DNA of 64,000 nt from Candidatus Eisenbergiella merdigallinarum. GTDB lineage: Bacteria > Bacillota > Clostridia > Lachnospirales > Lachnospiraceae. Below, piece by piece: positions 9,469 to 39,560 of this stretch. A program made the position numbers and the translations under genes. The notes below the pieces were generated by a model. The model ran no database searches and was not told the origin of the DNA. It saw only the letters and a list, made by a program, of their open reading frames with translations. Each line of letters opens with the position of its first letter. Within the stretch, counting starts at the first letter, position 1. Where the stretch lies: contig DWXE01000006.1 in NCBI GenBank assembly GCA_019119355.1, positions 100,260 through 164,259 on the forward strand, given 5' to 3'.

Positions 9469-9523
9469 GCTGTAAAAATCATCAGGAGATCCATTGATCG
9501 GGGAAGCGAAGCTCCCCCGGATG

Positions 9524-10150
9524 TCACTGCTTTCGTTTCTCGAAATCTTCCACGATCTGGGCGATGAGCTCCACGGTGCCGTCGATGCCCAGAACGGAAC
9601 TGTTCAGACAGTAATCGTAGCTGTCCGCGCGCCCCCACTTCTTCGAGGAATAATAGTTGTAATAGCTCTGCCTCTGCTTATCCTTCTTCGCCATCATGTC
9701 CCGCGCCTTCTCGTCGGTCACGTCGTATTTCTTCATCAGGCGCTTCGCCTTCGCATCCGCATCCGCAAAGATGAAGAAATGCACGCAGTTCTTAAAATCC
9801 TGCAGCGCGTAGTCCGCGCAGCGCCCTACGATGACGCAGGGCCCCTCCTGCGCAATCTTCTTGATGGTATCGAACTGAGCCAGAAAGATCTTGTGGCTGA
9901 TGGGCATATCCATAAAGGAGGAGGCGTTGTAGCCGAAAGAATAGGTGTCCATAACCAGATTGTACAGGAAGGAATTGGTCGGGCGTTCATCATGGCACTC
10001 GATCATCTCTTCGCAGAAGCCGCTTTCCTTTGCCACTCTCGTCAGCAATTCCTTATCGTAAAATTTGATATCGAACCGCTGGGCTACCTTCTCTCCGATC
10101 TCATGGCCGCCGGAGCCGAACTGACGTGCAATCGTAATGATAGTGTTCAT
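9524..10150 (-). CDS. Cytidylate kinase-like family protein
   Basis: ITIARQFGSGGHEIGEKVA P-loop and family pattern. Confidence 0.88.
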   Translation of the reverse strand: MNTIITIARQFGSGGHEIGEKVAQRFDIKFYDKELLTRVAKESGFCEEMIECHDERPTNSFLYNLVMDTYSFGYNASSFMDMPISHKIFLAQFDTIKKIAQEGPCVIVGRCADYALQDFKNCVHFFIFADADAKAKRLMKKYDVTDEKARDMMAKKDKQRQSYYNYYSSKKWGRADSYDYCLNSSVLGIDGTVELIAQIVEDFEKRKQ

Positions 10151-10209
10151 AACCTCAACTCCTTCCGTTTTTATACTGTTATTATATACAACTCAAAGGC
10201 AATTTTCAA

Positions 10210-11904: not shown

Positions 11905-12518
11905 TCCCGGTTCCTCCCTTCCTCCTCAACGTCTTCCGCCGGAAAGAGAGCTGCCAAAGCCTCTTTCCCCATCCCCGCCGCAAAACAGCAGGCCGCCATC
12001 TGCGAACGGGAGCTGAACTCCTCCGCGCGCAGAAGCGCCCGGACTTCGTCCCTGTCGTAAAACCGGGCCCGGATCTGTTCGTTGGCCGAAGCGCAGTCCG
12101 AAACCTCGCCCTCCGCTTCCACGAACGCGATACAGGTTTTCGTATCCGAAAAGCCCACAGCCGAATAAGACGGCGGCAGCAGGCCGATGATCCGTTTCGT
12201 CCGCAGGCCGGTCTCCTCGAAAAGCTCCCTCCTGACGCAGTCTTCCACGGTCTCCCCCTCTTCCAGCATCCCGGCGCAGAGGTTAAAAACTTCCCGGTTT
12301 AAGCTCATCCGGAATTCCCTCAGCAACAGCATCCGCTCCCCGCAAAAAGCCACGATGGAAACCCCGCTGACGGCTTTCCCCAGATCCTGCGGGCCGCGCA
12401 GCTCCTTTCTGCTGACCAGCTCGAAGGTTTTGGGGCGGCCGGCCCTGTTTTCATAGAGCAGTTCGTAATTTTTCAGATAGGCCCCGTCCCGGACCTTTTT
12501 CATCCCCAGAAGCTTCAT
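11901..12518 (-). CDS. NUDIX hydrolase
   Basis: Nudix box GMLEEGETVEDCVRRELFEETGL. Confidence 0.9.
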   Translation of the reverse strand: MKLLGMKKVRDGAYLKNYELLYENRAGRPKTFELVSRKELRGPQDLGKAVSGVSIVAFCGERMLLLREFRMSLNREVFNLCAGMLEEGETVEDCVRRELFEETGLRTKRIIGLLPPSYSAVGFSDTKTCIAFVEAEGEVSDCASANEQIRARFYDRDEVRALLRAEEFSSRSQMAACCFAAGMGKEALAALFPAEDVEEEGRNRE

Positions 12519-12555
12519 ATCCCTCTCCCTTCCGGCTTCGAAGCGCGCCTGCGCC

Positions 12556-13788
12556 CTATTTTCCCTGAACCCGAAGGAGCTCCGCCAGAGGCGGTTCCTC
12601 CTTTTTGCGGGTGATCTCCACCAGCCCCAGCGGAGTCATGTCCACCACCCGCACGGGCACCGGATCCGTCCTGACCAGCTGCCGGAGCAGCTCCATCAGC
12701 TTTTTCCGGTCCGATTCCTCCTCCATGCTGATAAAGTCCACGATGATGATGCCGGACAGATTGCGAAGCCGCAGCTGGCGGGCCACCTCTGCTGCCGCTT
12801 CCCCGTTGGTCATCCGGAAGGTCTCCCGTCCGGATTTTTTCCGGTCGAATTTTCCGGTATTGACGTCGATGGCCGTAAACGCCTCCACCGGTTCGATGAC
12901 CAGATATCCGCCGGATTTCATCCAGACCTTTTTGTCCAGAGCGGCCTGAACCTGGCCGGAAAGCCCGTACAGCCTGGAAAGGGGCAGGGACGGATCCGCA
13001 TAAAAGGAAAGGGAATCCTCCGCTTCCGGCCTCTCCTGCCTCAGCCAGCTCTTTATCGCCGTATGAACGCCCGGATCGTCGGTGACGATCCGATCGGGAA
13101 GCGGCAGATCCGGATCCGCCAGCCGTTTCAGATAGCCCGGCTCCTGCCCGGAAAGGATGGAAAAGACCGTGCGTGTTTTGCCGACGCGAAGCAGCCCTTC
13201 CCCGCGTTCCACAAGCGCCCTCGCGTCTTTTGCCAGCAGCGCGGGATCCGAAACCGTTCCGGAAACCGTGCGCGCCACCAGAGCCATGGACCGCGGGATT
13301 TCCACCTCCGACAGGGCGCCGCGCACGAAGTCCTGCTGCTGCGGAGAAAGCTTATGGGAACAGCGCAGGCCGCCGGTTTGGGACGGGCTCAGGGCGAAGT
13401 ACTTCCCCTTCAGCGTCAGATCCGCGGTCAGGACGGGGTCCTTCGTCCTGACCGCATCCTTTTTCACCTGGACCAGCAGTTCGTCACCGGGTTTCAGCGC
13501 GCCGTCGTAGGGCCGGTTGGTCAAAACCGGATGGGAAATCTCGGAAAAGGGCAGGAAACACACCTGTCCGCCGGCGATTTCCACAAAAGCGCTCTCGATG
13601 TTTTTGACCACATTCCTGACCTTGCCGATATAAATATTGCCCAGCAGTGATTGACCGAATCGGTCGATCCTGATTTCCATCAGCTTTCCGTCCTCGATCC
13701 AGAAGCCGCACAGCTTTTGTCCCAGCAGGGCGGCGGATCCGTCCTTTTCGGAAAAACCGGGCCGGGTGATCGCATATACCGTACTCAT
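12556..13788 (-). CDS. Ribonuclease E/G family protein
   Basis: GNIYIGKVRNVVKNIESAFVEIA S1 domain; IDVNTGKF; IIIVDFISM. Confidence 0.92.
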   Translation of the reverse strand: MSTVYAITRPGFSEKDGSAALLGQKLCGFWIEDGKLMEIRIDRFGQSLLGNIYIGKVRNVVKNIESAFVEIAGGQVCFLPFSEISHPVLTNRPYDGALKPGDELLVQVKKDAVRTKDPVLTADLTLKGKYFALSPSQTGGLRCSHKLSPQQQDFVRGALSEVEIPRSMALVARTVSGTVSDPALLAKDARALVERGEGLLRVGKTRTVFSILSGQEPGYLKRLADPDLPLPDRIVTDDPGVHTAIKSWLRQERPEAEDSLSFYADPSLPLSRLYGLSGQVQAALDKKVWMKSGGYLVIEPVEAFTAIDVNTGKFDRKKSGRETFRMTNGEAAAEVARQLRLRNLSGIIIVDFISMEEESDRKKLMELLRQLVRTDPVPVRVVDMTPLGLVEITRKKEEPPLAELLRVQGK

Positions 13789-13794
13789 AATCCC

Positions 13795-14502
13795 TTAAAA
13801 ATCCTCCCCCGGCGCGTCCAGCGGCCGAAAATCAGGCTCCTGCGGCGTCCCCGCGTTCATCCACGTCTCCCGGCGGAGAATCGAGAAAAAGCCCGGGCGG
13901 TCCGGCAGCGGCTCCCCGCAGAAGGACAGAAGGCTTTCCGCCACCTCCTCGGGGCGGATGTTCTGGCTGCTGCCCGAATCCGCCGTCACGCACAGCTTGC
14001 CGTCCCGGATGCTGCACGCGCGGATGCCGGGGCGGATGTTCACCTGTCTGGTGCCCTTTTTCCCCTCTCTCGTGACGTGGATTTCTTCCCTGGACAAAAA
14101 TTCCGGCAGCTTCGCCTCCATGGCCTGAAAGCTCATCCGGCAATCCGAAAAGCCGATTTCCCAGGACGCGGCCGCCACGCTGGCCATGGCGTTGTCCGTC
14201 CCCTCCGGAAGGGCCTTCGCGTCCAGGATTTCAATGCCTTCCGGGCAGACGGACCGCAGCCGCGCCAGAAAGTCCTCCCGCCCCTGATGGGAGTTGATTT
14301 CCACGTCCATATATTCCCCGCAGCTGCTCATCCCCAGCCCCAGGGGCGAAGCGAAGGTCATGATCTGATGGGGGCTGTAGCCTCCGGAATAGGCCACGTC
14401 GATTTTCGCCCTGCGGATGGCCTTCTGAAAGAAACGCATCACATCCAGATGCCCGATAAACCGCAGAGCCCCGTATTTGGCAAATTTTACCCGCACTCTC
14501 AT
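13795..14502 (-). CDS. TIGR03936 / DUF2344 radical-SAM-associated protein
   Basis: Family N-terminus RVKFAKYGALRFIGHLDVMRFFQKAIRRA; adjacent to TIGR03960. Confidence 0.9.
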   Translation of the reverse strand: MRVRVKFAKYGALRFIGHLDVMRFFQKAIRRAKIDVAYSGGYSPHQIMTFASPLGLGMSSCGEYMDVEINSHQGREDFLARLRSVCPEGIEILDAKALPEGTDNAMASVAAASWEIGFSDCRMSFQAMEAKLPEFLSREEIHVTREGKKGTRQVNIRPGIRACSIRDGKLCVTADSGSSQNIRPEEVAESLLSFCGEPLPDRPGFFSILRRETWMNAGTPQEPDFRPLDAPGEDF

Positions 14503-16382
14503 CCGTTCTGCCCCTCCCTGGCTTCAAAACATACGCCGCCGCCAAAGCGCGCCGCTCCGCAGCCCTGACATCGGGCCCTGCAGTTCGGCGAGACTTCCTC
14601 CCTCTGCGCCCGTTCCCATTCCCTCCAGAGGAATTCCCGGGTCACTCCACAGTCCAGGAAATCCCAGGGGAAAATCTCGTCCCGTTTTCTCTCCCTGGTG
14701 GTATAGAATCCGATATCCAGGCCGCATTCTTCGAAGGCTTCCAGCCACGCGTCGTTCTGGAAGGATTCACCCCAGGCATCGTAGAGACAGCCCTTCCGAT
14801 AGGCCGTCAAAATCGCTTCCGCCACCCGGCGGTCCCCCCGGGCGAAGACCCCCTCCAGCACGCTCACGTCGGCTTCGTGCCAGTTGTAGCGGATCCGCTT
14901 CTGATTCAGCTGTTCCCGCACGCTGCGCCTGGTGAGTGCCGCCTTTTCCAGGAATTCCTCCTTCGTGCACATTTTTGCCCACTGAAACGGCGTAAACGGC
15001 TTCGGGATGAAGAAGGAGGTGCTGGATACGATCTGTACCGGGCCGTTTCGCTTTTCCTTCGGCACCTTTTCGTAGTACAGGGCCGCGATATCGTTGGAGA
15101 GTTCCGCGATCCCCCGGATATCCTCCTCCGTCTCCGTGGGAAGGCCCAGCATGAAATAGAGCTTGACCCGGCTCCAGCCGCCCTCGAACGCCAGCCCCGC
15201 GCCGTGGAGGATATCTTCCCGGGTCAGCCCCTTGTTGATCACGTTGCGAAGCCGCTGGCTGCCCGCCTCCGGCGCGAAGGTCAGGCTGCTCTTTTTCACA
15301 TCCTGCACCTTTCCCATCACGTCCAGCGAAAAGGCGTCGATCCTCAGGGAAGGCAGGGAAATGTTCACCCTCTGCTCCCGGCAGGTGTCCATCAGAAATT
15401 CCACCAGCTCCTCCAGATGGGAATAGTCGCTGGAGCTCAAAGAACTTAAGGAAATTTCTTCGTAGCCGGTGCTGTCCAGCATCTCCGCCGCATACCGCTT
15501 CAGGGTATCCAGGCTCTTTTCCCTGACCGGACGGTAGATCTGCCCGGCCTGGCAAAAGCGGCAGCCGCGGATGCAGCCGCGCTGGATTTCCAGCACCATC
15601 CTGTCCTGGGTGGCCTTCACGTAGGGGACCACGGGCTTCGTGGGATAGGGAACGCTGTCCAGATCCATCACGATTTCCTTTCGCACCGTCGCGGGCACGC
15701 CCTCCCGTGCGGGCGCGAAGGAAGCGATGGTCCCGTCCTCTTCATAGCTCACCTCATAGAGGGAGGGCACATAGATCCCGGGCACTTCCCGGGCGGCCCG
15801 CAGCAAAAACTCCTCCCTTCCCTCTCCCGCTTTCTTCGTCTTCAGATAGAGATCCATCAGCTGCCGGTAAGCGGTTTCCCCCTCACCGATGTAGAACAGA
15901 TCGAAGAACTCCGCCACGGGCTCCGGGTTATAGGTGCAGGGCCCTCCGCCGATGACGATGGGATCCTCCTGCCCGCGGTCCTTCGCCAGAAGCGGGATGC
16001 CGGAGAGATCCAGAACCTGCAGGATATTGGTATAGCACATCTCGTACTGCAGCGTGATCCCCAGAAAATCGAACGAACGCACCGGATCCTGGGATTCCAG
16101 CGCGAACAGCGGAATGTTTTTCTCCCGCATTATCCTGTCCAGGTCCAGCCACGGCGAATAGACCCGCTCGCACCAGACGTCCCCGTAGCGGTTGAACAGA
16201 TCGTATAAAATCTGGATGCCCAGATGGGACATGCCGATTTCGTACACGTCCGGAAAGCACATGGCAAAGCGGATGTCCACCTTTTCGGGATCCTTCATCA
16301 CCGAATTGACCTCGCCCCCGATGTAGCGGGCGGGTTTGTCTACTTTTAACAAAATTTCATCACTTAACGCTAGTTTTCTCAT
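14499..16382 (-). CDS. TIGR03960 family B12-binding radical SAM protein
   Basis: MRKLALSDEILLKVDKPARYIGGE N-terminus; RGCIRGCRFCQAG CxxxCxxC. Confidence 0.93.
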   Translation of the reverse strand: MRKLALSDEILLKVDKPARYIGGEVNSVMKDPEKVDIRFAMCFPDVYEIGMSHLGIQILYDLFNRYGDVWCERVYSPWLDLDRIMREKNIPLFALESQDPVRSFDFLGITLQYEMCYTNILQVLDLSGIPLLAKDRGQEDPIVIGGGPCTYNPEPVAEFFDLFYIGEGETAYRQLMDLYLKTKKAGEGREEFLLRAAREVPGIYVPSLYEVSYEEDGTIASFAPAREGVPATVRKEIVMDLDSVPYPTKPVVPYVKATQDRMVLEIQRGCIRGCRFCQAGQIYRPVREKSLDTLKRYAAEMLDSTGYEEISLSSLSSSDYSHLEELVEFLMDTCREQRVNISLPSLRIDAFSLDVMGKVQDVKKSSLTFAPEAGSQRLRNVINKGLTREDILHGAGLAFEGGWSRVKLYFMLGLPTETEEDIRGIAELSNDIAALYYEKVPKEKRNGPVQIVSSTSFFIPKPFTPFQWAKMCTKEEFLEKAALTRRSVREQLNQKRIRYNWHEADVSVLEGVFARGDRRVAEAILTAYRKGCLYDAWGESFQNDAWLEAFEECGLDIGFYTTRERKRDEIFPWDFLDCGVTREFLWREWERAQREEVSPNCRARCQGCGAARFGGGVCFEAREGQNG

Positions 16383-19149: not shown

Positions 19150-19329
19150 TTATGCTCCGTTCAGCCACTGGTCAAAGCTGGCTTTAGGGATCCTGTAGTT
19201 ATCACCGACTTTGATTACACGGAAAGGCCCTTCATCCTTGTAGGCGTTCTTTATAAATTCATATGCTTTAGAACGGCTGACACCAAGAATGTCCTTCACT
19301 TCTGCAACACTGTAAACTCTGGATTCCAT
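19150..19329 (-). CDS. Excisionase-like helix-turn-helix protein
   Basis: YSVAEVKDILGVSRSKAYEFI...YRIPKASFDQWL; adjacent to integrases. Confidence 0.85.
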   Translation of the reverse strand: MESRVYSVAEVKDILGVSRSKAYEFIKNAYKDEGPFRVIKVGDNYRIPKASFDQWLNGA

Positions 19330-19442
19330 ATATTCACCTCGCAATCCGGCAAATGGGTACAAATCAACGGTTCCTACAGAGAATATGACATTTTATTGAA
19401 TGCCGACCATTTTTTTTCGCTGATCATTACATGTGCTTAAGG

Positions 19443-20913: not shown

Positions 20914-21834
20914 TCAAGATACTACATCTTCCGGCGTCACATCCATCCGATATCCTTTAAATACAGGCTGCCTAAGAGCACCTTGTATATTCGGCATATA
21001 TTCAACTACGCATACATGATCCGGATACACCCATACTGCCTGTTCGTTCCCTGCCGGAATCAGATGGAATGGATTTTTACCAGAGACCCTGAGTCCTCTT
21101 ACGGCATCGTTTGTTACACCAGAAGTTACGTGTCCTTTATATACCAGCGTTTCGTGCCTGAATTTCGCCAGAATCAGGCTGTAAATATGCTTGCCTTTTG
21201 GGATGTACCCCGCAACTACGAAATCTTCATCTGCCATCCGCTTACATTTGATCCAGTCACGACTCCGCTTTCCCATCATATAGATACTATCTTTACGTTT
21301 TGCCACTATACCTTCCAACTCACGTTGATCAGCAGCATGGTAAAGGGCCTTCCCGTGTTCTTCAATATACCGTGATATAGCGATCCTCTCAGTTTCTGTG
21401 ACAATTTCCTGCAGGATCTGCTTACGGGTAGTCAGTGGCTCCCAGATCAATTCCTTTCCACTCATATATAAACAGTCGAATGCTACATAAACGGCCGGAA
21501 ATCTGGTAGTTTCCAATTCAATACGGTACTTATCAGTGAGGAATGTCCGCTTCTGAAGTGCATAGAAATCCGGCACTCCATCTTTTAGCACTACTATCTC
21601 CCCGTCCAGGATACAATTTGTACGTACATTTTTGTATATCCGTCCCAATTCCGGGAATCTGCTGTTGATCTGGAAGTTTCTTTTATTTCGGAGATCGACC
21701 TCCCCATGACCAAAATAGGCCAGGCAGCGGATCCCATCCAGTTTCAGCTCATATATCCAACGCTTGTCGTCGAAGGCCTGCTCCTGAGAAGCGATCAGCA
21801 TCGGACTTGCCCCTCTTGCTGAAAAAATATCCAT
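20914..21834 (-). CDS. ATP-dependent DNA ligase (LigD ligase-domain type)
   Basis: Nucleotidyl-lysine motif YELKLDGIR, LDGEIV, C-terminal OB region; TAATG-coupled to Ku. Confidence 0.9.
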   Translation of the reverse strand: MDIFSARGASPMLIASQEQAFDDKRWIYELKLDGIRCLAYFGHGEVDLRNKRNFQINSRFPELGRIYKNVRTNCILDGEIVVLKDGVPDFYALQKRTFLTDKYRIELETTRFPAVYVAFDCLYMSGKELIWEPLTTRKQILQEIVTETERIAISRYIEEHGKALYHAADQRELEGIVAKRKDSIYMMGKRSRDWIKCKRMADEDFVVAGYIPKGKHIYSLILAKFRHETLVYKGHVTSGVTNDAVRGLRVSGKNPFHLIPAGNEQAVWVYPDHVCVVEYMPNIQGALRQPVFKGYRMDVTPEDVVS

Positions 21835-22622
21835 TATGCTGTTCCTTGTGTTTTATGCTTTTCATTTCCAGTAAGTTCAAGACTTTTTTGTAACGCTTCC
21901 ATGAGATCAATGACATTAGACGGACCATTGGTATCCACAGCGACAATTTCCTGTCCCTGGATCTTTTTGGTTATTGCTGCCCTGAGCCGTTCCTGGTATT
22001 CATCGTGGAAATCAGAGGCATCAAAAGGTTTTGTCATGTTTTCGATTAACATTTTCGCCATATTCAATTCATTTTCATCCAGTTTCATTTTGGGTACAGT
22101 TTTCGGCATGGCAGTAATCTCATCTTGATAAAAGAGAGTTTTTACGATGATTCCATCCTTGGTTGGATACAGTACCAGCAGTTTTTCACTTGTCCCCATG
22201 ACTGTTTTCGCTATCGCTACCTTTTTTTGGGATAGCAGCGACTGACGAAGTAGTTCAAAGGCTTTTTCCGCCCCAGCTTCCGGCATGGCATAATAATCCC
22301 TTTCATAATAGATCATATTGACCTCTGACATTTTGGCAAACTGAAGGATATGGATGGTTTTGTCTTTTTTCGTTTTTATCTTTTCAAGCTCCTCATTGGT
22401 CATAACGACATATTTACCTTTTTCATATTCGTAGCCTTTAATGATATCTTCGCTTTTAATTTCCTTATCACAATGACGGCAATACTTTTTATACTGGATG
22501 CGCTCTTTGCTTTCCCTGCAAAGCTGGTTAAAGTGTATATCATTATCTACTGTCGTTTTATATAAGCCTACAGGAATTAACACAAGCCCCATGGATATGC
22601 TGCCTCTATGTGCAACTGCCAT
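21834..22622 (-). CDS. ku: Ku-domain NHEJ protein
   Basis: RGSISMGLVLIPVGLYKTT...NQLCRE..RIQYKKYC, KGYEYEKGKYVVMTNEEL. Confidence 0.93.
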   Translation of the reverse strand: MAVAHRGSISMGLVLIPVGLYKTTVDNDIHFNQLCRESKERIQYKKYCRHCDKEIKSEDIIKGYEYEKGKYVVMTNEELEKIKTKKDKTIHILQFAKMSEVNMIYYERDYYAMPEAGAEKAFELLRQSLLSQKKVAIAKTVMGTSEKLLVLYPTKDGIIVKTLFYQDEITAMPKTVPKMKLDENELNMAKMLIENMTKPFDASDFHDEYQERLRAAITKKIQGQEIVAVDTNGPSNVIDLMEALQKSLELTGNEKHKTQGTA

Positions 22623-23477: not shown

Positions 23478-24554
23478 TTACCAGGCGACTGCTATATCGA
23501 TTTGCGTAGGATTTGCGTAGATAAAATCTCCGGTATCAGCCACAATACAGGTACCAAGACTGCTTTCGACAAGACTGCCTCTCGGTCTGAGGTTCAGATC
23601 AGCTGCACACATGATATATGATCCCAGCATTTTACATCCGTCTTCTCTTATCCAGTATGGATATTCCTCTTCCGAAAAACCGGCTTTTCTCATGATCCTG
23701 ACCACACCGGACATATTGAGGTTATAATAGGTCTCCTTTCCACTAGGGCCGAGCACAGTCCCATTATGCCTGTTCAACACACCAGGCCGGACGGTTTCCT
23801 TCTGATTGGTTCTGTTGCTTTCCTTTTTCAGGCTCGTCCTCAATACTGTAGCCTTTTCCCTGAGTTGATCTGCTTCTTTTATGAGCAGATCATCACTGCT
23901 CGCAATCAAGATCCCATCGTCCCCTTCCGGTTCTCCCATATATGGCTCCGCATCCGTGACGATACGGGCATAGCTGACCTCGGATTCCTTGACCCAGCCG
24001 TGTTCTTTATTTCCGGAACTGTCAGTAACATAGGTGATCTCGATCCAGCCATCTTTTGATCCCCATACATCCAAGTCATCCGTAGAAACTGTCGGTTCGG
24101 TTGCACCGGCTTTCCTTTCCGCTAAAACAGTCGCTCCAGCATCTGGCTCTGCGTATATGGATATGTCCTTGTCCGCCGCTATTCCGTCCTGTGACGTAAC
24201 ATCTTCCAGTATCTCATCGGAATTATCGAGCCAGGATGCTTTCATGTATCCGGTATACCCTCCGGAGAATACTTTTACATAACTACCGTCTTCACCGATG
24301 ACACGGCAGACACCTCCTTCCGGAACAAAGGCTATTTTTATTGAGTTCTGGTCTGCTTCCTCGTAAATATAGCAGTCGTCATAAGCACAGGCGTAAAAGT
24401 ATGAGGCCCCGGCAGCATATGAATCAACCGCTGGCATCATACCTACCAGGAGCGATACGCACATGGATGGTATAAGGGCTTTTAAGTGTCTGCCTTTCAC
24501 TTTCCGCCCCTCCCTGTACAGATCCCATCCGGCCTCAGGCTGTTTACAGCCCAT
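23478..24554 (-). CDS. Secreted SH3-domain protein with C-terminal 3D/double-psi-barrel-like domain
   Basis: Signal-peptide-like N-terminus, two SH3b-like stretches, C-terminal LGTCIVADTGDF..QIDIAVAW. Confidence 0.65.
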   Translation of the reverse strand: MGCKQPEAGWDLYREGRKVKGRHLKALIPSMCVSLLVGMMPAVDSYAAGASYFYACAYDDCYIYEEADQNSIKIAFVPEGGVCRVIGEDGSYVKVFSGGYTGYMKASWLDNSDEILEDVTSQDGIAADKDISIYAEPDAGATVLAERKAGATEPTVSTDDLDVWGSKDGWIEITYVTDSSGNKEHGWVKESEVSYARIVTDAEPYMGEPEGDDGILIASSDDLLIKEADQLREKATVLRTSLKKESNRTNQKETVRPGVLNRHNGTVLGPSGKETYYNLNMSGVVRIMRKAGFSEEEYPYWIREDGCKMLGSYIMCAADLNLRPRGSLVESSLGTCIVADTGDFIYANPTQIDIAVAW

Positions 24555-25096
24555 GTGACATCATTTTCAAGCAGCACTGCTCCCTTTACAAGAGTTTGCC
24601 TGCTGAAATCAGAAAGGAATGCGTTGCGTCCTTTCCCAAGGTAACCGCAGATCATATCAACGGTCATCTCGGCATTTTCCACCTGGCTGCTGATAGGGGT
24701 ATCGTTGTCGACATCGTACCATCCAGAAATGGATTCATGGATGCTTTCTAACGTGCACTCCCCTTCCGCATCCCTGCTCAGGCAATGCACCAGAGCGGTG
24801 TACAGTGCGCGCTCAGCGTCATTGGCAGACCTGCACATACGGATCTTGTGCACGTCTATGGAATCGATGGGGAGAATGCGGTTTTCCCATCCGCGCTTGA
24901 CCATGACCTCATCACAGGCAAGCTCGATCAGGTTCAGATTCTCCTGCGCAAGGCGGGATGCTTTCGCACGCAGCTTCTTTACCTCTCTTTTTCTCAGTGC
25001 CTCATTGGCAGCGCAAACAGCGGCTCCTCCCGCAAGGATCGTAAATGCCAGTTTAGGCATGTTTTTTTTCAGGTTGATTCTGTCCAGCAGATCCAT
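24497..25096 (-). CDS. Hypothetical protein with N-terminal hydrophobic segment
   Basis: ORF with SD (ggaggcag) before MDLLDRINLKKNMPKLAF. Confidence 0.55.
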   Translation of the reverse strand: MDLLDRINLKKNMPKLAFTILAGGAAVCAANEALRKREVKKLRAKASRLAQENLNLIELACDEVMVKRGWENRILPIDSIDVHKIRMCRSANDAERALYTALVHCLSRDAEGECTLESIHESISGWYDVDNDTPISSQVENAEMTVDMICGYLGKGRNAFLSDFSRQTLVKGAVLLENDVTWAVNSLRPDGICTGRGGK

Positions 25097-25951
25097 TCCT
25101 CTGCCTCCTTCCTTTATGGTTTGAGAGTAATATGCAAGAAACCATTTCGGGAAAAGCTGATTTTTTCGCATTGTTTGACATCAGCACTCCAGGTATCTTT
25201 TTGCGGATACGGAAAAGATGTGTTAAGACATAGACAGGACATGAGATACAGTCCTTCGCCGGTTCAGGTGAATATATGATTTCCTTTTCTTTCTTGTCAG
25301 CAGGGCGGCGATCTTGGGATTTGCTGCCTTGCATTATTTGTAAATGTTCGGGGGGATCGGATGTTTGGGCTTCACCAGCAGGACAAACATTTTTCTGTCC
25401 CGCTCTTTTTATGACAAAGAATTTTAGATGTGCTATATTATTGTTAGGGCAAAGAAAGACAGCCCTTCCGCCGGTGTGAGGCGGATGCGATTTTCCTTTT
25501 TCCTTTTCTTATTTCTGCGAAGGGTGGGACACAGGAGAGAAAGATCCCTCACAGCCTGCCCTTTTGTGGATTGCGTCAGCATACTTTCCGGAACAATGAT
25601 GGTATCTGGGGAATATTTCTTTGTGACCGCAGTGTTTTTCTTTTCTTATCGCTTACACTATTTTCGCAAACCATCTCTCATCTTCTCTCGCTCCTTGCCG
25701 ATTGTTGCCGTCGGCCCCAACTTTTGAGTCTGGTGGTTCCCTTTTACTCCAGGACTCTCTTTTTCCTTCCCCTACGGGGTTCTGAAAAGAAATTCCCAGG
25801 ATATGCTGCTCCAGCGTCTGGACGTATCGCAGGGTAACAGCGTCAGGTTTGTGCGCCGGACATATTAATATCTCTGGGAACTCTGAATCTTAGGGAATCT
25901 TAAGCTATCTTAAGCTATCCAATTCTTTCCCTTATTTTCATCTCTGTCCCC

Positions 25952-26076
25952 ATGACATTTTAAGATATTTGTTCACCTGATATCATATCATCTCAGATCT
26001 CCTGACATAATATGTTATCCGTTCTCCTGCTATGTTATGGTGGCGGGATGCCCGACATCATATGATATCTGCTTTC
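25952..26076. repeat. Iteron sub-array 1: five units, 25-nt period
   Basis: Units start at 25952, 25977, 26002, 26027, 26052; core like GACATCATATGATATC (near-palindromic). Confidence 0.75.
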
Positions 26077-26119
26077 TTCTTTTTTTTCTTTAAATTCCAA
26101 GCAATATTGGCAGGCAGGC

Positions 26120-26300
26120 CTGAGATCTTAATATCTCAGGTGAACTGATATGTTTAACAATTCCGGCTACCTGACATGATTAACACCTCCGATCACTCGA
26201 TATAATTAACATCTCTGTTTACCTGATATATTTAACAGTTCCATTCATCCGACACTTTTAACATCTCCGATCACCTGATATGTTTAACATCTGCGGTTTT
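26120..26300. repeat. Iteron sub-array 2: seven units, 25/26-nt period (consensus ctgAYAtgtTTAACAtctccgatcac)
   Basis: Units start at 26120, 26145, 26171, 26197, 26223, 26249, 26275. Confidence 0.85.
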
Positions 26301-26538
26301 CAGGAGGTTCAGGTGGAAATCTCTAAGGAAGAAATATCAGGATATGCGATGGAATGATGTCTTGAGGTTCACCGGCTGTCCTTGACGGATATGATGTTCT
26401 CCTATCTTCTTTGCTCAGGGAATTACTGATAAGGGAGCTGAGCCTACCCGGCTAAATTCATTCGATTTCCAGTATTCTTGAGCTTTCTCCATTTATCTCC
26501 CCTTTTCTCCCATTTACTCCATGTCGATTTTTGAAATG

Positions 26539-27089
26539 CAATGAAATACCGACGGTTATCCATTGTCCGTCTTTTCCGCTCCTTTGAGCTCTGCTGGTCT
26601 CCCATTTATTCCCATACTTTCTCTTGTTGTCCCATGTTTCCCAATATTTCCCTGTTTTTCCATGTGTTCTCCCTCTTTTCGGCTTCCTTAACTGTTTTTT
26701 ACCCTCTCGCTGCTTTGCGATCGTTTTTCCTGAAATCATGTAAGTTATGATGTCTGATCAGAGTTAGCTGTACCTGAACTGCTATTGACATTTTTGACCC
26801 TTTTCCCGTTATTTCATCAGCATTTCCCTTTCTTGAATCCCTTTTGATCTCTTTCATCCTCTTCCTCTCCCCTCTAAACGCACCACTGATCCTGCATGAG
26901 CCGACCAGATGTGGCGCTGCCCTCAACTTTTCAAATGAGATGCAATGAAATTCCTCCGGTTACTCATTGTCTGTCATTATCATCCTTTTTTATTCCTATA
27001 ACCCGCCGCATCCATCCTCTGACCTGATGGATACTACCCGTGATACAGGCCTGATTGAAATGAAATGATATGTCTCTGATGATTCATTT
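26539..27089. repeat. Three dispersed ~37-nt repeats, each a 27-nt dyad (26539-26565, 26943-26969, 27063-27089)
   Basis: CAATGA-N15-(T/C)CATTG and AAATGA-N15-TCATTT followed by TGTC/TGTC/TGTC-like tail. Confidence 0.65.
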
Positions 27090-27143
27090 TCTGTCAATTT
27101 ATATCTTGTATGTTGAACGTTTCTGCTCGGAAATAAAATTCAA

Positions 27144-27171
27144 TAACTCACTACGGAATTTGGAATTCCGT
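27144..27171 (-). promoter_or_regulatory. oriT: Predicted MobV-type oriT / relaxase nick region
   Basis: Minus strand ACGGAATTccaAATTCCGT followed by AGTGAGTTA; resembles pMV158 inverted repeat + TAGTGTG/TTA nic; 55 nt upstream of the relaxase. Confidence 0.65.
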
Positions 27172-27226
27172 ACGTTTTTTAAAAACTGTTATCTGTCATA
27201 TTCCTTTGGACAAAGGAGGTATTAAA

Positions 27227-28261
27227 ATGGATTACTGTATTTTTCGCTTTAACAAAATAAAATCCCGAAGCATGATGAAGCAGGTATACGACCACCACTT
27301 CCGGTTTGCGGAGCCAGTCAACGTTGATAAGGAATATGAGGCGCTAAACGACCACCGGGTCACGCCAGACGGCGACTATATCAGCAGGTTTCATGAAAGG
27401 CTGAATGAACTGGAATACTATAAAGACCATAATTTCAGAAAAAACGGAGTGATGGCATACGACGTCCTTTTTGCCTATTCCCCTTCCGCCGCCGGAAAAA
27501 TAGACCTTGAGAAGTGGAAACAGGATAATGTGGACTGGCTCAATGAGACTTTCGGGAAAGAGAATGTCCTGGGGGTCGTATACCATTATGACGAAGCCGG
27601 ATATACGGAAGCCAGCACGATACACGGCCATGCTGCTGTCATACCGGTAGACGATAATGGTAAGGTTAACGCTTCCTACTACACTGGTGACAAAGCCAAG
27701 GTTTCAGAGCTACAGGACAGATACGCGGAAGTCATGAAGGCACACGGGCTGGAAAGGGGGATCGAGCAGTCCCTGTCCAGACACGATACACCCAAGCGAT
27801 TTTATGCAAAGCTTGAGGACGCCGTATATGGGATGCCGATGCCTGACCGTACCCCCGGTGAAAGCGCGGAAAAGTATGTGGAGAGGGTAAAAGACGCATG
27901 GCGCACAGAAAGGGCCGCCCATGTCCGTGAAATTCGGGATAAGAACCGTGAGATAGTGGAGATCCGGTCAGATCACAGAAGTGAAACAGAGAAAGACCGC
28001 GTGATCAGGTCACTCAGGGGGAAAATGGAAAAATACAGGGAAGCTGACAGGGAATTGATCCGCGAGTTTGGCAGCCGTCAGGAAGCTGTACAGCTTGCAA
28101 AGACAATGAAGCTGTTGAATGAGGGGATCGAGAACCATCCGGACACAGAAAAGGCCAACAGGATAGCGAATGATGTCATCCAGCTCATAAGCTGGTCTGA
28201 AAAGGAACGAAGGAAGAAAGAGAGAGAAAAGGATCAGGAGATCGCAGATGTGCGTAAATAG
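27227..28261 (+). CDS. MobV/Pre family relaxase (plasmid recombination/mobilization protein)
   Basis: VVYHYDEAG..IHGHAAVIPVDDNGK..NASYY..LQDRYAEVMKAHGLERG; SD aaaggaggt. Confidence 0.8.
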   Translation: MDYCIFRFNKIKSRSMMKQVYDHHFRFAEPVNVDKEYEALNDHRVTPDGDYISRFHERLNELEYYKDHNFRKNGVMAYDVLFAYSPSAAGKIDLEKWKQDNVDWLNETFGKENVLGVVYHYDEAGYTEASTIHGHAAVIPVDDNGKVNASYYTGDKAKVSELQDRYAEVMKAHGLERGIEQSLSRHDTPKRFYAKLEDAVYGMPMPDRTPGESAEKYVERVKDAWRTERAAHVREIRDKNREIVEIRSDHRSETEKDRVIRSLRGKMEKYREADRELIREFGSRQEAVQLAKTMKLLNEGIENHPDTEKANRIANDVIQLISWSEKERRKKEREKDQEIADVRK

Positions 28262-28343
28262 CGTTTTCTACCCCATGTACCTGTCTTTCATATTCTCTTT
28301 GTAATGCTGAAAGATTTCAAAGAGAAAGGAGAATCCTGAAAAG

Positions 28344-31148
28344 ATGGAAAAAGTGACTTATCATGAACTGAGGCTGATAAACGCCTGCAAACGCAGAAGG
28401 GAATATCCTCTGCATTTAAGGTCTGCGGACAGCCATCCGAAGCAGCTATCTGCCATCCAGAAGGCGATCCTGTCAGACGTACTTTCTGAAAGGATGGAGT
28501 CAGGGGAGATACCAGACAGGCTCCATGAACTTTTGAAGGAAATGCCTTTTCGATCAAAAAAAGGGAAAGAATTATTGGAGAGCGATATCAGCAAACGCCT
28601 TTATCGCTGTGCAGACACGATCAACGGACGAAAAAATGCCCCAAACTATTGGTCTGTCCTGACGGATCTTCCTGATACGACCGTGATCCTTCCCGGTAGC
28701 ACGGAAACCCTGAGTGTTGCCGGTGTGAGGCCTGATCTTGTCGTCAGATCTCATGTAGCCGGGATCCCGAAGATCACGGCATACCATATCCGGATAGGTG
28801 CTCCAAAAAAACCGGGCGGCACGAAATACCGGGCGAAGGATGCTGCTCAGGACCTCCAGGTGCTCGCTCTTCTGGAATACGCCCGCTTATTTGCGGAACA
28901 GCTCCTGCTAACAGGTGGAGAAGCGTATATTGAGGCTGGGTTTTTGTTCTTGAGGAAGAGCACTGACAAAGCACCTAACCCAAGGGATAAGGAATGGTAT
29001 TTTGATCCGGACCTTTTCTATGACGACAATGGCGAAGAAACAGACAACGTGGCAACGGTCCAGAAAGCAATAAGGATCGGACAAAGCAAAGATGTGTTGA
29101 AAGTTAAGGAAATAACAGCAGTGATCGACAGATACCTGGAAGGTATCCCTGCGGAAGAATGCCCGGAAGAAAACTGCAAAGACTGTGAATACTATGATGT
29201 TTGCTACTACACGCATTCCCCCCTGAAACTGGAGGAAAATAAGGCCCCTACAGCCCTCAGCCTGATCCGGTTAAGCGGCATACAGGAGCAGATCCAAAAT
29301 TTTCAGACAGGATACGCTGTCGTCAATGCGGTGCCAGGCGCGGGGAAAACGCTCGTCCTTGTCCTGCGTATCATAAACCTCCTGAATTTGGGGGTAAAGC
29401 CGGAGGAGATCGCAATCATAACATTTACGAATGCCGGAGCAGAAGTCTTTAAGGAAAGGATCTGCCTTTATAACGATGAACTCGGTTACGGGGAACCTGT
29501 GGACAAGATGATCGCCACGACATTTAATGGGTTTGGGCAGAGCATCCTGGAGAAGGAATACAGGGCAATGGGATTTGAAAAGGTTCCTAAAGTCATCGAT
29601 CCCATCGAGCGGTCAGGCATCATTGCGAAGCTTCTGAACGAGAAGCCAGTCGAGGGGCTGGACTACAGGAATTTCACTACGGATATGAAAACCTGCAAAG
29701 GCGCCCTTGCAGTAGCAAGTGAATGTTTCCGGCTGATGAAACAGTATGGCTGGACACAGTTTGACGTGGACAAGATCTCAGCGCGGATGGGACGTTTCTG
29801 CAGCCGTGAGGCGGCGCAAGGGCTGGCCTGCCTGTTCGATGAATACTGCTCTTATCTAAAAAAAGAAGGGCTTGTTGAGTATGCAGACCAGGAAGTGCTT
29901 CTTCTTGAGATGCTTGGTAAGGATCCCTATTACTTTGACAGCCTGGGGGTGAAGCATATCCTTGTAGACGAGTGCCAGGATACATCTGAAAACCAGTTCC
30001 GCATCCTGAAATATCTCACCCAGACGACATCCTTTGAGTCCCTGATGATCGTTGGGGATGACAGTCAATCGATCTACGGATTCCGTGATACGACGCCCCG
30101 CTACTTTCTGTCCTTTGAAGAAACAATGGGACTGCTTCCCGGTACAGCAGCTGTGTTTACCATGGATGAAAACTACCGGAGCACACCAGAGATCATCTCG
30201 TTCGCGAACGATCTTATAACCCTGAACAAATGCAGGGTTGACAAGACCATCGTAGCGGTAAAAGGCTCTGGAAAGCCTGTATCCATCAAAGGATTTGCGT
30301 CAGCGGATGAAGAATACAGGTGGATCGCAGACAGCATCGCACAGCAGATCAGTTCTGGCAGGAAGCCGGAGGAAATCGCAGTGATCGCTTCCACTAAGAC
30401 GGAGCTGTTAAAAGTGGCAGACATCCTTACGTCGGAAGATATCCCTTCGGTATTGCTCACGCCGGAAAAGTACCTGGAAAACTCCAGGGTCAGGGCCGCA
30501 TTGGCCCTTGCAGGCGTTTTCAGAGATGAGAACACACAGGATGCGATGATCTATTTCAATGCATCCCTCAGTGGTGATCTCTTTCTCTTTGGAAAGGAGC
30601 AGATGGAAATCGGGATCGACCGGGTGATCGAGGATGTGAAAAGCTATAAAGCCCTTCCAGAAAAAGAGTGTATGGAAAACTTTTTCCGTATGCTGGATTT
30701 CCTGGATGAGGACGATGAAATCTACCAATCATTTGAAGATTTCCTGAGGCGCCATGCCAGCATGAATGCGATCCTCTCCTATTGCGAAGATTTTTCAGCG
30801 TATGGTGAAAAAGCTGAGAAACGCAGGGAACATAACTATCCTGGCGTTGTACTCACAACAGCGCACAGCTCCAAAGGAATGGAATTCCCGGTCGTCTACA
30901 ATACGGTCACAAAATATGACCTGAAAGAATTACGTCCCGGTGATGACATCGAGGAGAAAAGGCGTCTGTTATTCGTTTCTGTCACGAGGGCGAAGGAAGA
31001 ACTGTATATCACTGGCAAGTACATCGCTTACGGCGGGAAAAAAGACCCGCATTTCAACCGGTTCCTGATGGAATCCTTTGAAATCGTGGGCGAAGCCAGG
31101 GAGCCATATGAAATTCTCTGTGAGATTGAGGAAAAAAACGTGAAATAA
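28344..31148 (+). CDS. UvrD/PcrA-like superfamily 1 helicase with N-terminal Cas4/RecB-like (PD-(D/E)XK, Fe-S) domain
   Basis: CPEENCKDCEYYDVC cysteine cluster; VPGAGKT, VDECQDTSENQ, GDDSQSIYGFR, SVTRAKEELYIT. Confidence 0.88.
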   Translation: MEKVTYHELRLINACKRRREYPLHLRSADSHPKQLSAIQKAILSDVLSERMESGEIPDRLHELLKEMPFRSKKGKELLESDISKRLYRCADTINGRKNAPNYWSVLTDLPDTTVILPGSTETLSVAGVRPDLVVRSHVAGIPKITAYHIRIGAPKKPGGTKYRAKDAAQDLQVLALLEYARLFAEQLLLTGGEAYIEAGFLFLRKSTDKAPNPRDKEWYFDPDLFYDDNGEETDNVATVQKAIRIGQSKDVLKVKEITAVIDRYLEGIPAEECPEENCKDCEYYDVCYYTHSPLKLEENKAPTALSLIRLSGIQEQIQNFQTGYAVVNAVPGAGKTLVLVLRIINLLNLGVKPEEIAIITFTNAGAEVFKERICLYNDELGYGEPVDKMIATTFNGFGQSILEKEYRAMGFEKVPKVIDPIERSGIIAKLLNEKPVEGLDYRNFTTDMKTCKGALAVASECFRLMKQYGWTQFDVDKISARMGRFCSREAAQGLACLFDEYCSYLKKEGLVEYADQEVLLLEMLGKDPYYFDSLGVKHILVDECQDTSENQFRILKYLTQTTSFESLMIVGDDSQSIYGFRDTTPRYFLSFEETMGLLPGTAAVFTMDENYRSTPEIISFANDLITLNKCRVDKTIVAVKGSGKPVSIKGFASADEEYRWIADSIAQQISSGRKPEEIAVIASTKTELLKVADILTSEDIPSVLLTPEKYLENSRVRAALALAGVFRDENTQDAMIYFNASLSGDLFLFGKEQMEIGIDRVIEDVKSYKALPEKECMENFFRMLDFLDEDDEIYQSFEDFLRRHASMNAILSYCEDFSAYGEKAEKRREHNYPGVVLTTAHSSKGMEFPVVYNTVTKYDLKELRPGDDIEEKRRLLFVSVTRAKEELYITGKYIAYGGKKDPHFNRFLMESFEIVGEAREPYEILCEIEEKNVK

Positions 31149-32699: not shown

Positions 32700-33213
32700 T
32701 CTCTTAATTTTCCCATGTTACTGAATAGCTGCGCTTTTTAAAACGGCTAAATTTATATATGTTACTATAACAAATGTGGGTAAGAAGGATCTGATTAAAA
32801 GCAATTAATTTTTGAAAAAATTTTTATACAATGATGATATTTTATATCATTTTTCTTAAAAACATTTTTATTAACACTTTTGTGGCGGATCATAACAAAT
32901 TGATCGCCGTCAGGGTAGGTATAAGGCGATAAAGGTGTCGCCGTTCGGAAGGGGTGAAGGACATGCGTATGTTCGAAAGGACGATCCTTTGTGTATAGGG
33001 ACCGTCAATAGTTCCAGAACAGAAGGCCATTGAACAACAGGCAGAATGGCAGGAAACCCAGGAGAGGGTGATCCGTCCATTTACTGATCGTGCGGAATGG
33101 GCGGGAATATGCTGATAATGGCTGTTAAAAGGAAACGCAAGGTGTTCATTCACGGACGGATAGACTGTTTCCGTGGGTGGGGAGAGGTTTTCGGAAAAAT
33201 TGGAGTGATTACT

Positions 33214-34476
33214 ATGGACTGGGAAAAACTTTTTGAGAATGGCAATGAAATAGGGAATATGGGGTTAGCTGAGGATGTTAAGGCTGATATCAGCTTAAAT
33301 CAGCCAGAAGATTACGAAAACGATCTTGACAGGTATATTGACGACGCGATGCGGAAGGCTTCAGAGACCCTCCATCCGTCCTCATCAACCCCCATGAAGA
33401 ATAGCGGGTGTAATGCTGACGCGTCTCCTTCTGGCAATGATTCCCCTGGTAATTCTGCCCTAAAAAAGGACAGGGAAGCTTATCTGGAAGGAGGAGCATA
33501 TGCGGTCCACAATAAGTTATCCTTAAACCCCAGCCCTACGCGTGATGACTTGGTAAGGATCATGGAGCTATATCACCATGGCACACGGGAAGAACAAGAT
33601 CAAGCGCAGACAGAAATGCTTGGCGTGCTTGATCCCTATATCCTGAATATAATCTATACGCGATATTCTACATATGCGAGGAAGCATTTGAACGATCTTA
33701 TGCAACAGGGATACCTTGGGGTCATCGTGGGCATGAAGACGTATGACCCGCACCTGGGCACTCCAACGACCTGGTTTAGCCGATATATCAATCATGAGAT
33801 CCAGGATTATATCTGTACACAGATCAACCATACCACGCAGCATTACAGCAACGCATCCAAAAAGGTGATGGACTGCATCAAAAGGAAACAGATAAACAAT
33901 ATCCCTTTCACCGAAAAGGACATCTACATTGAAACATCAGTCCCCTTAAAGACCATCCGGATGTGCCTCCAGATAAGCAATCTCTCTACTGTTCCAATCG
34001 ACTCAGAGGAAAACCCCATCGAGCTTCCTTCGAATTTCGATGATCCTGGAGAATACGTCGTGGAAAAAATGGAAAATGAGCATATAGCAGATCTGCTTTT
34101 TGGCAGTCAGGACGGAAAATATATCAGTGTACTGAGCGAAGACGAAAGAGACTGCATTGCTCTGCATTATGGTTTTGATGGCCGCGGAGTGCGTAGTTAT
34201 TCAGAAATAGAGAAGACCACTGGGATTCCAAGGCATAAGATTGGAAAGATCATCCAGGTGGGATTAAAAAAGATCAAATTTGAGCTGACAAAAGAAAAAT
34301 ATGGGATAAGGAGGGAACGCGTGCAACCGGCCCCGGAACGTGAAATGGACAGAGCAAGGCATAAGAATAAGAATAAGAGGAAAGAGATGATCCTGGACAA
34401 TATCCTTTCCGACGCCGAAATGGAATTTACCCAAATGACACTCTGGGAATATTTTAAGGATGGGCTGCTCGATTAA
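33214..34476 (+). CDS. Sigma-70-like RNA polymerase sigma factor
   Basis: Region 2-like DLMQQGYLGVIVGMKTYDPHLGTPTTWFSRYINHEIQDYI and region 4-like LSEDERDCIALHYGFDG..SYSEIEKTTGIPRHKI. Confidence 0.8.
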   Translation: MDWEKLFENGNEIGNMGLAEDVKADISLNQPEDYENDLDRYIDDAMRKASETLHPSSSTPMKNSGCNADASPSGNDSPGNSALKKDREAYLEGGAYAVHNKLSLNPSPTRDDLVRIMELYHHGTREEQDQAQTEMLGVLDPYILNIIYTRYSTYARKHLNDLMQQGYLGVIVGMKTYDPHLGTPTTWFSRYINHEIQDYICTQINHTTQHYSNASKKVMDCIKRKQINNIPFTEKDIYIETSVPLKTIRMCLQISNLSTVPIDSEENPIELPSNFDDPGEYVVEKMENEHIADLLFGSQDGKYISVLSEDERDCIALHYGFDGRGVRSYSEIEKTTGIPRHKIGKIIQVGLKKIKFELTKEKYGIRRERVQPAPEREMDRARHKNKNKRKEMILDNILSDAEMEFTQMTLWEYFKDGLLD

Positions 34477-37169: not shown

Positions 37170-37829
37170 TTACACCTCACTAAATACTTTTGAGAAGATC
37201 ATCTTTGTAAAAACATCGTCTATCTGCTTTGCAATCTGCTTTGATTCTATCAGGGTACCGAGTTCTATATTGCCCTGTTGCCCATGATAGGACAGATTCG
37301 CAGATGTTATTAAGGTCTGCTGCTGGTCAACCGAAATAACCTTTGCATGAAGTGCAGCCATCTTATCATCGTCCTGATGATAGTTATAGATTTTTAGAAA
37401 CCGTCCTTTATAGCGCAGTATCTTATCGAATCCCTGCTGCTTATCAATATCATTCACAAAGAACTTCACGAATACACCTCGCTGGCTTTTAAGAACGATT
37501 GTGTCGACCAGTTCTGAAAAGTATGAGGATAAGGAGTATCCCGTAATCAAGATATTCCTTTCCGCTCCGTTTATCATAGACTGAACCACATTCATCGTAG
37601 TTCTCGCATTGATAGAAAAAGATGGAGGTGCGGTGACAACAAGCGAAACCTTATCTGCTTCGGACATATTCATGGCGCCGATAATCGTAGCTATGATGTC
37701 CTCGCAATGTGCATCGGACAATTCCGGGCAGCTCCGCTTCAGCATAGCTTCAGCATTAGTTGTCCCATTAGCCACATCGCTTTTGACCGTATTTAAGAAT
37801 ATCTCTTTGTTTAGATTTCCACCTGGCAT
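37170..37829 (-). CDS. drmC: DrmC-like phospholipase D-domain protein
   Basis: Single HKD motif HAKVISVDQQQTLITSANLS; adjacent DrmB. Confidence 0.85.
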   Translation of the reverse strand: MPGGNLNKEIFLNTVKSDVANGTTNAEAMLKRSCPELSDAHCEDIIATIIGAMNMSEADKVSLVVTAPPSFSINARTTMNVVQSMINGAERNILITGYSLSSYFSELVDTIVLKSQRGVFVKFFVNDIDKQQGFDKILRYKGRFLKIYNYHQDDDKMAALHAKVISVDQQQTLITSANLSYHGQQGNIELGTLIESKQIAKQIDDVFTKMIFSKVFSEV

Positions 37830-39559
37830 AAGTCACCTACTAATTCCTTGAAATATGAGCATTCCTCGCGTCCTGGAATAGGAACTACAAGACCTCTGTC
37901 AAGCATTCTGTTTCCATTCTCGCACGCCGTTTCAGATATCATGCAGCACGAGTGGCAAGCGGCACCGTTTGAGTTTTTGCCGGCAGGCAAATTGCTCATA
38001 CATTCCGGGTCATTCGTACAAACAAGAGCTTCTTGGAAGGCGTCCCTCATGAGATTCGTCATCTGATCGATATTACCAAGTTCAACCAGACCGCCGAGTG
38101 AGCCTTCCTTATCGGAGCTTCCTGTGTATAAAAGAATGCCGGCCATTTTATCTCCAAAATAGATTCTTTCTCTAATAGCCGAAGAAGAATATCCCGATGA
38201 CATAGACATTTGCTTAATCATCAAGTGAGCGAATGTGTGCATCAGAACATAAACGGCATTTCTTACGACCGTAATCGTCCAGCCTTTTGACTCGCAGAAC
38301 TCTCTGTACGAGTCAGAATACTTTTCTGATAGGCCTTTCACCGTTGGAGAATTGAGCCACGCCGCAAGAGTATCTTTGTTAAACTCTATAAAGATGCCTT
38401 CTCCGTTTACTTCCGCCGCAGGTAGCCAGCGTTCCTGCTTACCCTTGCTTAATGCTACAACATTCGGCTGTTCATCTGCATCCGGATCGGGAGCGTCTAC
38501 TCTTGTGAATCCAAGAAGAACACGAACCTCTCTGAGTCTGGTCACTCGGATAATGCGGCTGAAATACTTCTGCAAGTACCCCGGCAGAGCATCCTCTTCA
38601 GCCTTGAAATGTTTCTTGTTTGATTCATATGCAGGGTCATTGTGGTGTGTGATGGCATTGTATTCCATCTGTTTGATTTCAGTGAACTCTTTGATATTGC
38701 TCATGCGCCGCTCAAGCGCATCATCAAACTCATCCCTCGAATAAGCAGAGAAATACATTTCATATATTTTGGTTATTCCATCATCTCCCATAAGCTGTTT
38801 TGCAAGCTCGATATCACGAAGATGCTCATCGATTAAGTTATACAGCGGATTGATCCACGGCGGAATAGAGATTGCACTCCGACTCACAGCGAAGTAAACA
38901 TTAGACGCACCACGCTGTGAAGGAATGATGGGTTTGTTGCACTTATGGTTTTTCACATTCGGTCTGAACGGATGATGGCCGGGGCAGGCAACGCCGTCAA
39001 AATTATCTCGCTGTGTTGCACCGCTCATGCTGCGTTTCGCACCGCAGGAGCATTCTACCCACATATCCGCAAGAGTGGAGGTATTGCCCGTTGAATACAT
39101 TTTTAAGGTACCGTTGCAATCGGACTCGCCTCTGTGTACCCACCACTTCCAAGGGAAGTCAGACAAATGACCGTCCTCGCAGATTGTGATGAAACGGGAT
39201 GGATAGGCAGGGCGATGGCACTCAGGGCAAGTGACACCATACTTGAGATACTTATCCAAGTCAAAATACTTTCTGGCATCAAACAGCTTTCCGCATTTTA
39301 AATTAGAGCATACGTGCCAGTATGGGAAGGTCACAACAGGAACATCACCCGAAAAACTTGTCCGCGGCATATAGAAGCAATCAACGCCCAAGTATGATGC
39401 AAGCCTGCCATCAATTATTTTTTGTCCCTTCTGTTTCCAGTAGGAGATGTCAAGAATCGTAACCGAGTCCTTTACCGCATCGACTACCGATCCGGGACCA
39501 AAGGTGGTTATGATTTGGTTTGGACGTAACTCTCCAAGTTTATTATTATCAAAAGCCAT
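37811..39559 (-). CDS. drmB: DrmB-like DUF1998 protein
   Basis: LGELRPNQIITTFGPGSVVD N-terminus, CSNLKCGKLF..CPECHR zinc motif, C-terminal CX..CCMISE. Confidence 0.88.
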   Translation of the reverse strand: MAFDNNKLGELRPNQIITTFGPGSVVDAVKDSVTILDISYWKQKGQKIIDGRLASYLGVDCFYMPRTSFSGDVPVVTFPYWHVCSNLKCGKLFDARKYFDLDKYLKYGVTCPECHRPAYPSRFITICEDGHLSDFPWKWWVHRGESDCNGTLKMYSTGNTSTLADMWVECSCGAKRSMSGATQRDNFDGVACPGHHPFRPNVKNHKCNKPIIPSQRGASNVYFAVSRSAISIPPWINPLYNLIDEHLRDIELAKQLMGDDGITKIYEMYFSAYSRDEFDDALERRMSNIKEFTEIKQMEYNAITHHNDPAYESNKKHFKAEEDALPGYLQKYFSRIIRVTRLREVRVLLGFTRVDAPDPDADEQPNVVALSKGKQERWLPAAEVNGEGIFIEFNKDTLAAWLNSPTVKGLSEKYSDSYREFCESKGWTITVVRNAVYVLMHTFAHLMIKQMSMSSGYSSSAIRERIYFGDKMAGILLYTGSSDKEGSLGGLVELGNIDQMTNLMRDAFQEALVCTNDPECMSNLPAGKNSNGAACHSCCMISETACENGNRMLDRGLVVPIPGREECSYFKELVGDLCQVEI

Positions 39560-39560
39560 G

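Follow-up and report, generated by a model that had tools for sequence, protein, structure and literature searches.

What role does a regularly spaced repeat array play when it lies in a long non-coding block ahead of a relaxase gene? We addressed this question in a 64,000-nt stretch of DNA from Candidatus Eisenbergiella merdigallinarum, hereafter the window, which forms the end of a 164-kb contig and whose nearest named relatives are Lachnospiraceae plasmids. A mobile element begins at 16.5 kb. It carries genes for two tyrosine recombinases, an excisionase-like HTH protein, a DUF1351 protein, a LigD-like ligase and Ku, together with a MobV relaxase, a UvrD helicase, a signal peptidase, a sigma-like protein and a CHC2 protein. 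The array lies 0.9-1.4 kb upstream of the MobV gene in a block (25172-27226) in which no gene of a known family was found; at about 2.05 kb, the block is longer than the 1.9 kb of the original prediction.

Units and symmetry of the array

The array consists of thirteen dyad units of one half-site between 25856 and 26299, all given on the plus strand. An outlying even unit at 25856-25880 (halves CCGGACATATT and AATATCTCTGG) is symmetric at 9 of 11 half-site positions, holds leave-one-out rank 9 among 128,000 window positions and has its axis 95 nt ahead of that of the next unit. Sub-array 1 (25951-26075) comprises five even dyads with a period of 25 nt, starting at 25951, 25976, 26001, 26026 (weak) and 26051. 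The even dyad at 26119-26143 has perfect 8-nt arms (CCTGAGAT-CTTAAT-ATCTCAGG, the palindrome occupying 26119-26140), and sub-array 2 (26144-26299) comprises six odd dyads with one central T and a period of 26 nt, starting at 26144, 26170, 26196, 26222, 26248 and 26274. The earlier claims of 25- and 26-nt spacings at these coordinates, of at least 12 units and of a perfect palindromic unit at 26119-26140 were borne out, with the frame moved one base to the left and a thirteenth unit added at 25856.

Both periods exceeded those of 1000 dinucleotide shuffles. Results showed 72 matches at lag 25 in 25930-26090, compared with 39.9 in shuffles (z 6.2; lag 50, z 7.1), and 101 matches at lag 26 in 26115-26305, compared with 44.0 (z 10.5; lag 52, z 9.5). 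TRF reported 5.6 copies of period 26 at 26145-26289, and a repeat finder agreed. When each unit was left out of the profile in turn, all units except 26026 ranked right after the remaining array units, at rank 6-10 among the 128,000 window positions, and the weak unit ranked 246. Profile and pattern searches restricted the motif to the block within the window. As an array, the two-unit motif was absent from the other 145 related genomes, which included 12 congeners, and is therefore private among the 146 genomes; the best match of the two-unit sequence model outside the array (21.6 bits, in G045) was a lone A+T-rich stretch, and the exact two-unit pattern had no match in viral contigs. A chance origin was rejected on the shuffle z scores, the profile ranks and the dyad permutation described below, and CRISPR-like or coding repeats were rejected because the units are degenerate and no gene lies at the array.

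The half-site common to all units is nCnGAnATnWT, arranged as imperfect dyads in which the left half reads CYTGAYATNWT and the right half, as reverse complement, about CNGGAGATGTT. The halves of the 25-nt units abut at an even axis (e.g. GACATCAT and ATGATATC), and a single T separates those of the 26-nt units (GATATGTT-T-AACATCTC). At the chosen axis, 90 of 143 half-site positions were complementary, compared with 28-44 at other axes, 29-33 after a one-base shift and 37.7 ± 5.1 with permuted right halves; the units are thus dyads and not direct-repeat monomers of the iteron form. When the palindrome was excluded, 80 complementary positions were still found, against 34.8 ± 4.9 by permutation.

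The original prediction had described two sub-arrays with different cores. The two periods are real, but the separate motifs are not: a profile built from the left half of each 26-nt unit gave all 25-nt units scores in the 99.95th percentile of the window or higher, and two unrelated motifs were rejected since one profile recognises both sub-arrays. The palindrome at 26119-26140 is the last even unit, the following unit starting exactly 25 nt on. The linker between neighbouring units is constant and the centre holds 0 or 1 nt, so that spacing depends on the type of the preceding unit and one inserted axis base accounts for the change from 25 to 26 nt. Both phases are therefore one array of one motif, with one extra central base in sub-array 2.

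Conservation within the half-site followed the symmetry. Pairwise identity at the symmetric positions (2, 4, 5, 7, 8, 10 and 11) was 0.84 in left and 0.75 in right halves, compared with 0.45 and 0.30 at the remaining positions, a difference that points to protein binding and would be expected if selection acted for a two-fold symmetric binder. At positions 3 and 6 the left half differs consistently from the right one, which gives the array a direction. At axis spacings of 25 and 26 nt, or 2.38 and 2.48 helical turns, adjacent units would face nearly opposite sides of the DNA, and single-face helical phasing was rejected on these values. Taken together, the units are almost certainly sites for a dimeric DNA-binding protein. 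As for the phased protein-DNA filament proposed originally, the multi-protein array is well supported by the dyads, the conserved symmetric positions, the constant linker and the location upstream of MobV; the one-face phasing is not.

The MobV region and its relatives

The block separates a divergent minus-strand gene of no known family (24497-25171) from a plus-strand MobV family relaxase gene (27227-28261; PF01076; NF041497, 119 bits at a cut-off of 100, profile positions 1-187). A plus-strand UvrD-type helicase gene (28344-31148), whose product is 41% identical to the homologues of the Butyrivibrio megaplasmid pCY360 and of genome G461, follows mobV after 82 nt. No solved structure matched the window MobV by sequence, and no DNA-binding ORF or accessory-protein gene was recognised in the block or among its direct neighbours. 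As in MOBV mobilization regions, an inverted repeat stands immediately upstream of the relaxase gene: the plus-strand palindrome CTACGGAATTTGGAATTCCGTA at 27151-27172 (z -3.1), 76-55 nt before the gene, is a probable oriT or relaxase site. It is directly followed by T6 and could alternatively be a terminator. Between the array and mobV, another repeat, about 43 nt long (TGAAATGCAATGAAATnCC...) and imperfectly inverted, occurs on the plus strand in three dispersed copies (26532-26574, 26936-26978 and 27056-27098; 3 matches, 0.07 expected). A polypyrimidine stretch at 26477-26680 shows a period of 10 nt (z 6.5 at lag 10 across 26310-27200).

Homologues of six element proteins were found on pCY360 (MobV 24%, UvrD 41%, DUF1351 30%, signal peptidase 33%, sigma 27% and CHC2 29% identical) and of three in G461 (UvrD, sigma and MobV). 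These common gene families place the element, in integrated form, among the relatives of Lachnospiraceae megaplasmids such as pCY360. Comparison with a congener gave no clean empty site, the homology ending at about 16.34-16.38 kb, and the right end of the element was not found within the contig, which ends with the window. In the congener G010, the region of window 1-8712 is inverted and lies directly upstream of the 14499-16382 gene; this order and orientation over window 1-16382 indicate that the region beside the element is rearranged.

Several other features of the element were recorded. Ku and an ATP-dependent DNA ligase are encoded side by side at 20914-22622. The sigma-70-like protein encoded at 33097-34476 contains regions 2 and 4, has homologues on pCY360 and in G461, and may be a sigma factor specific to the element. 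A serine recombinase gene at 35407-36990 matches the resolvase profile from position 34 on and is therefore possibly truncated at the N-terminal end. With its PLD domain, MrfA zinc-binding domain and large helicase, a large minus-strand cluster at 37170-53000 is similar to a DISARM-like defence island; an ABC-3C CTD11 protein gene and a DUF2800 RNA motif (54617-54776) come after it.

The closest MobV relatives were about 27-41% identical. A relaxase search of genome contigs and viral contigs returned no relatives, and a UvrD alignment scan of genome contigs matched generic UvrD helicases. No close relative of the element was found, and the comparison of MobV upstream blocks covers few elements. 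In the window and two relatives, G461 and pCY360, the same order was observed, namely an array, the motif YTASGGAATTT and the MobV gene, with arrays that differ in sequence and period. The motif occurs once in nearly all of pCY360 and twice in the examined G461 loci, and all of these copies lie at most 250 nt upstream of the MobV gene. The probability of one occurrence in a 250-nt block is 0.0015-0.003, for a word picked after the three blocks had been viewed. Its location suggests that YTASGGAATTT is probably the oriT of this MobV subgroup, which would provide a concrete motif for poorly known gut megaplasmids and their integrated relatives.

In G461 (contig C30, locus L047), the order is a Rep3 initiator gene, its own iterons, four dyads, ACTAGGGAATTTC repeats and MobV. 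The iterons are 21/42-nt direct repeats at 9272-9421 of the locus, 130 nt after the Rep3 gene. The dyad array has four copies of RYATCTNTYNTRYATGAT, 35, 37 and 35 nt apart, at 9951-10078, and CTAGGGAATTT occurs twice between the dyads and MobV, which is interrupted by an apparent insertion sequence at the contig end. On pCY360, a 1.93-kb non-coding block precedes the MobV-like gene. TGTAGC is about ten times denser there than plasmid-wide (4.7/kb vs 0.45/kb); most copies are paired in opposite orientation at a distance of exactly 61 nt, and the pairs follow one another at intervals of about 92 nt. At 112919-113460 (L182:12919-13460), repeats of about 92 nt each hold an inverted pair of CTTGTAGCAT-type sites 61 nt apart, which may represent hairpins, RNA or protein sites. 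TTAGGGAATTT and an inverted partner lie between the repeat block and the MobV-like gene. The MobV-like protein of pCY360 is without the N-terminal third of the family profile, and its block may therefore serve another role.

Further MobV loci were mixed. In G170 the dyad GTGTCAGTAACGTGACAC occurs seven times at 2.5-3.3 kb ahead of MobV, and the GGAATTT motif is absent near MobV despite this array; the short gap upstream of MobV in G087 showed no array, and the upstream sequence in G041 amounts to only 401 nt. The expectation that related elements conserve the period thus held in part, in that arrays recur in the same place and neither the 25/26-nt period nor the sequence is shared. A broader proposal, which we consider rather doubtful, is that the long non-coding blocks ahead of MobV, in Lachnospiraceae megaplasmids as well as in integrated elements, form an undescribed class of cis locus. 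Each block would have a private regular inverted-repeat array (period 25/26, about 36 or about 92 nt) recognised by a co-evolving MobV-like protein or other partner, also in cases of a decayed relaxase domain such as that of pCY360.

Possible functions of the array

We tentatively favour the array as a cis-acting control site of the mobilization region of the element, predicted from its sequence to be bound by a dimeric protein. Each dyad would take one dimer, either of an element-encoded accessory protein or of the relaxase in a double-stranded DNA binding mode, with MobV itself and the excisionase-like HTH protein as candidates. Dimers would sit side by side, neighbours touching across the constant linker, and the resulting nucleoprotein platform of roughly 430 bp would activate or repress oriT processing by building or silencing a MobV initiation complex. 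The MobV relaxase and the co-oriented UvrD helicase would then start transfer at the palindrome near 27.16 kb, from which transfer-linked replication may also proceed. The specificity of the array would vary between elements, as it does for oriT accessory sites of other families. If the array belongs to a transfer origin, its recognition platform is much larger than those compared below, and a one-base change of the dyad axis is tolerable as long as neighbour contact is kept.

Of the three roles named in the original prediction, that of relaxosome or mobilization accessory sites is the best match, given that the order of array, oriT-like motif and MobV gene recurs in two relatives; sequence and period are not conserved. 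This recurrence, separate from the Rep3 iterons, favours a mobilization function over Rep iterons. Several results weigh against a mobilization role: the array and the oriT-like palindrome are about 0.85 kb apart, a greater distance than for the known accessory sites compared; no accessory-protein gene was recognised beside it; the arrays of different elements have neither sequence nor period in common; and YTASGGAATTT was chosen post hoc, with G170 having an array but not the motif and G087 no visible array. MOBV systems such as pMV158, described as working via MobM without such arrays, count against it as well.

Replication-origin iterons of the Rep type, also named originally, are disfavoured: the units are dyads, PF01051 (Rep3) had no match in the whole genome (about 90% complete), no DnaA box (TTATNCACA) occurs in 25-27 kb, and the relatives keep Rep3 elsewhere, G461 with separate iterons and pCY360 with its Rep3 gene at record position 1, about 114 kb from the MobV block. 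The main rival, since its anatomy is the same as that of the array, is a phage-lambda-type origin of the excised element, in which an initiator dimer on each dyad melts neighbouring T-rich DNA. The thirteen inverted-repeat units would suit it, as would the strongly pyrimidine-skewed DNA that they adjoin at 26.4-26.9 kb and the CHC2-type primase piece and UvrD helicase of the element. The GC content is 35-41% in the array and 40-47% in the T-rich-skewed DNA to its right. We nevertheless regard such an origin as unlikely, given that no O-like initiator gene was recognised among the element genes scanned, that Rep3 and DnaA boxes are absent as above, and that the dyads of G461 stand apart from its Rep3 iterons and the MobV block of pCY360 from its Rep3 gene.

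An operator array is improbable to a similar degree. A repressor, perhaps the 70-aa HTH_17/excisionase-like protein (19150-19362), the sole small DNA-binding protein that we recognised among the products of the element, would silence the divergent operons (24497-25171 minus, 27227-31148 plus) that the block separates and keep the element quiescent. The dyad form suits a dimeric repressor, but the array stands 0.7-1.4 kb away from either start codon, its 13 sites are far above operator needs, and predicted promoters are at most slightly above shuffles. Centromere-like sites commonly are arrays of regularly spaced repeats, and the period here is kept despite sequence drift, as would suit a partition site loading a segregation protein on a circular form. 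We hold this role, the third named originally, to be very unlikely: no Par family occurs among the neighbouring genes, nor parA, parM or parR among the element genes examined, and ParM/StbA and ParA of pCY360 are encoded far from its MobV block. A transcribed structured RNA with the dyads as hairpins is the least credible. The minus strand does fold better than shuffles (z -4.8; plus strand, z -2.0), but good folding is inherent in any dyad array, no Rfam match of any weight was found, and single units are weak hairpins whose axis varies by one base.

Comparison with known systems

The Rep3 iterons of G461 resemble the array in being tandem, with a period of about 20-40 nt, near the MobV gene of a related element; they differ as direct repeats beside a Rep3 gene, whereas the window has dyads in a genome without Rep3. 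Unlike plasmid iterons, those of the lambda origin are inverted repeats to which O dimers bind next to an A+T-rich stretch; there are four, of 19 bp, by a 40-bp A+T-rich region (PMC5043065). Like the units of the array, each suits an initiator dimer; an O-like gene was not found in the element.

In pMV158 (MOBV1), as in the window, an inverted repeat precedes the MobV relaxase gene, and the relaxase MobM binds double-stranded inverted repeats beside its own promoter (PMC5863519). No distant multi-unit array is described there (PMC5863519), in contrast to the window with its 22-nt palindrome and thirteen units 0.85 kb away. TcpK dimers bind tandem boxes in the pCW3 oriT, likewise tandem repeats in a clostridial mobilization region with a dimeric protein; those boxes are 9-nt direct repeats, not dyads, and tcpK is known (PMC6137059), whereas a homologue was not identified in the window. 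The SmpO system of the pWBG749-family oriT has two sites, ossA and ossB, 65-67 bp apart rather than thirteen, with smpO beside oriT and SmpP as relaxase (PMC8136818). Both are short dyadic sites that accompany an oriT, a probable one in the same non-coding block in the window, and a relaxase gene, and their specificity diverges between relatives; the SmpO sites switch specificity between oriT subtypes (PMC8136818).
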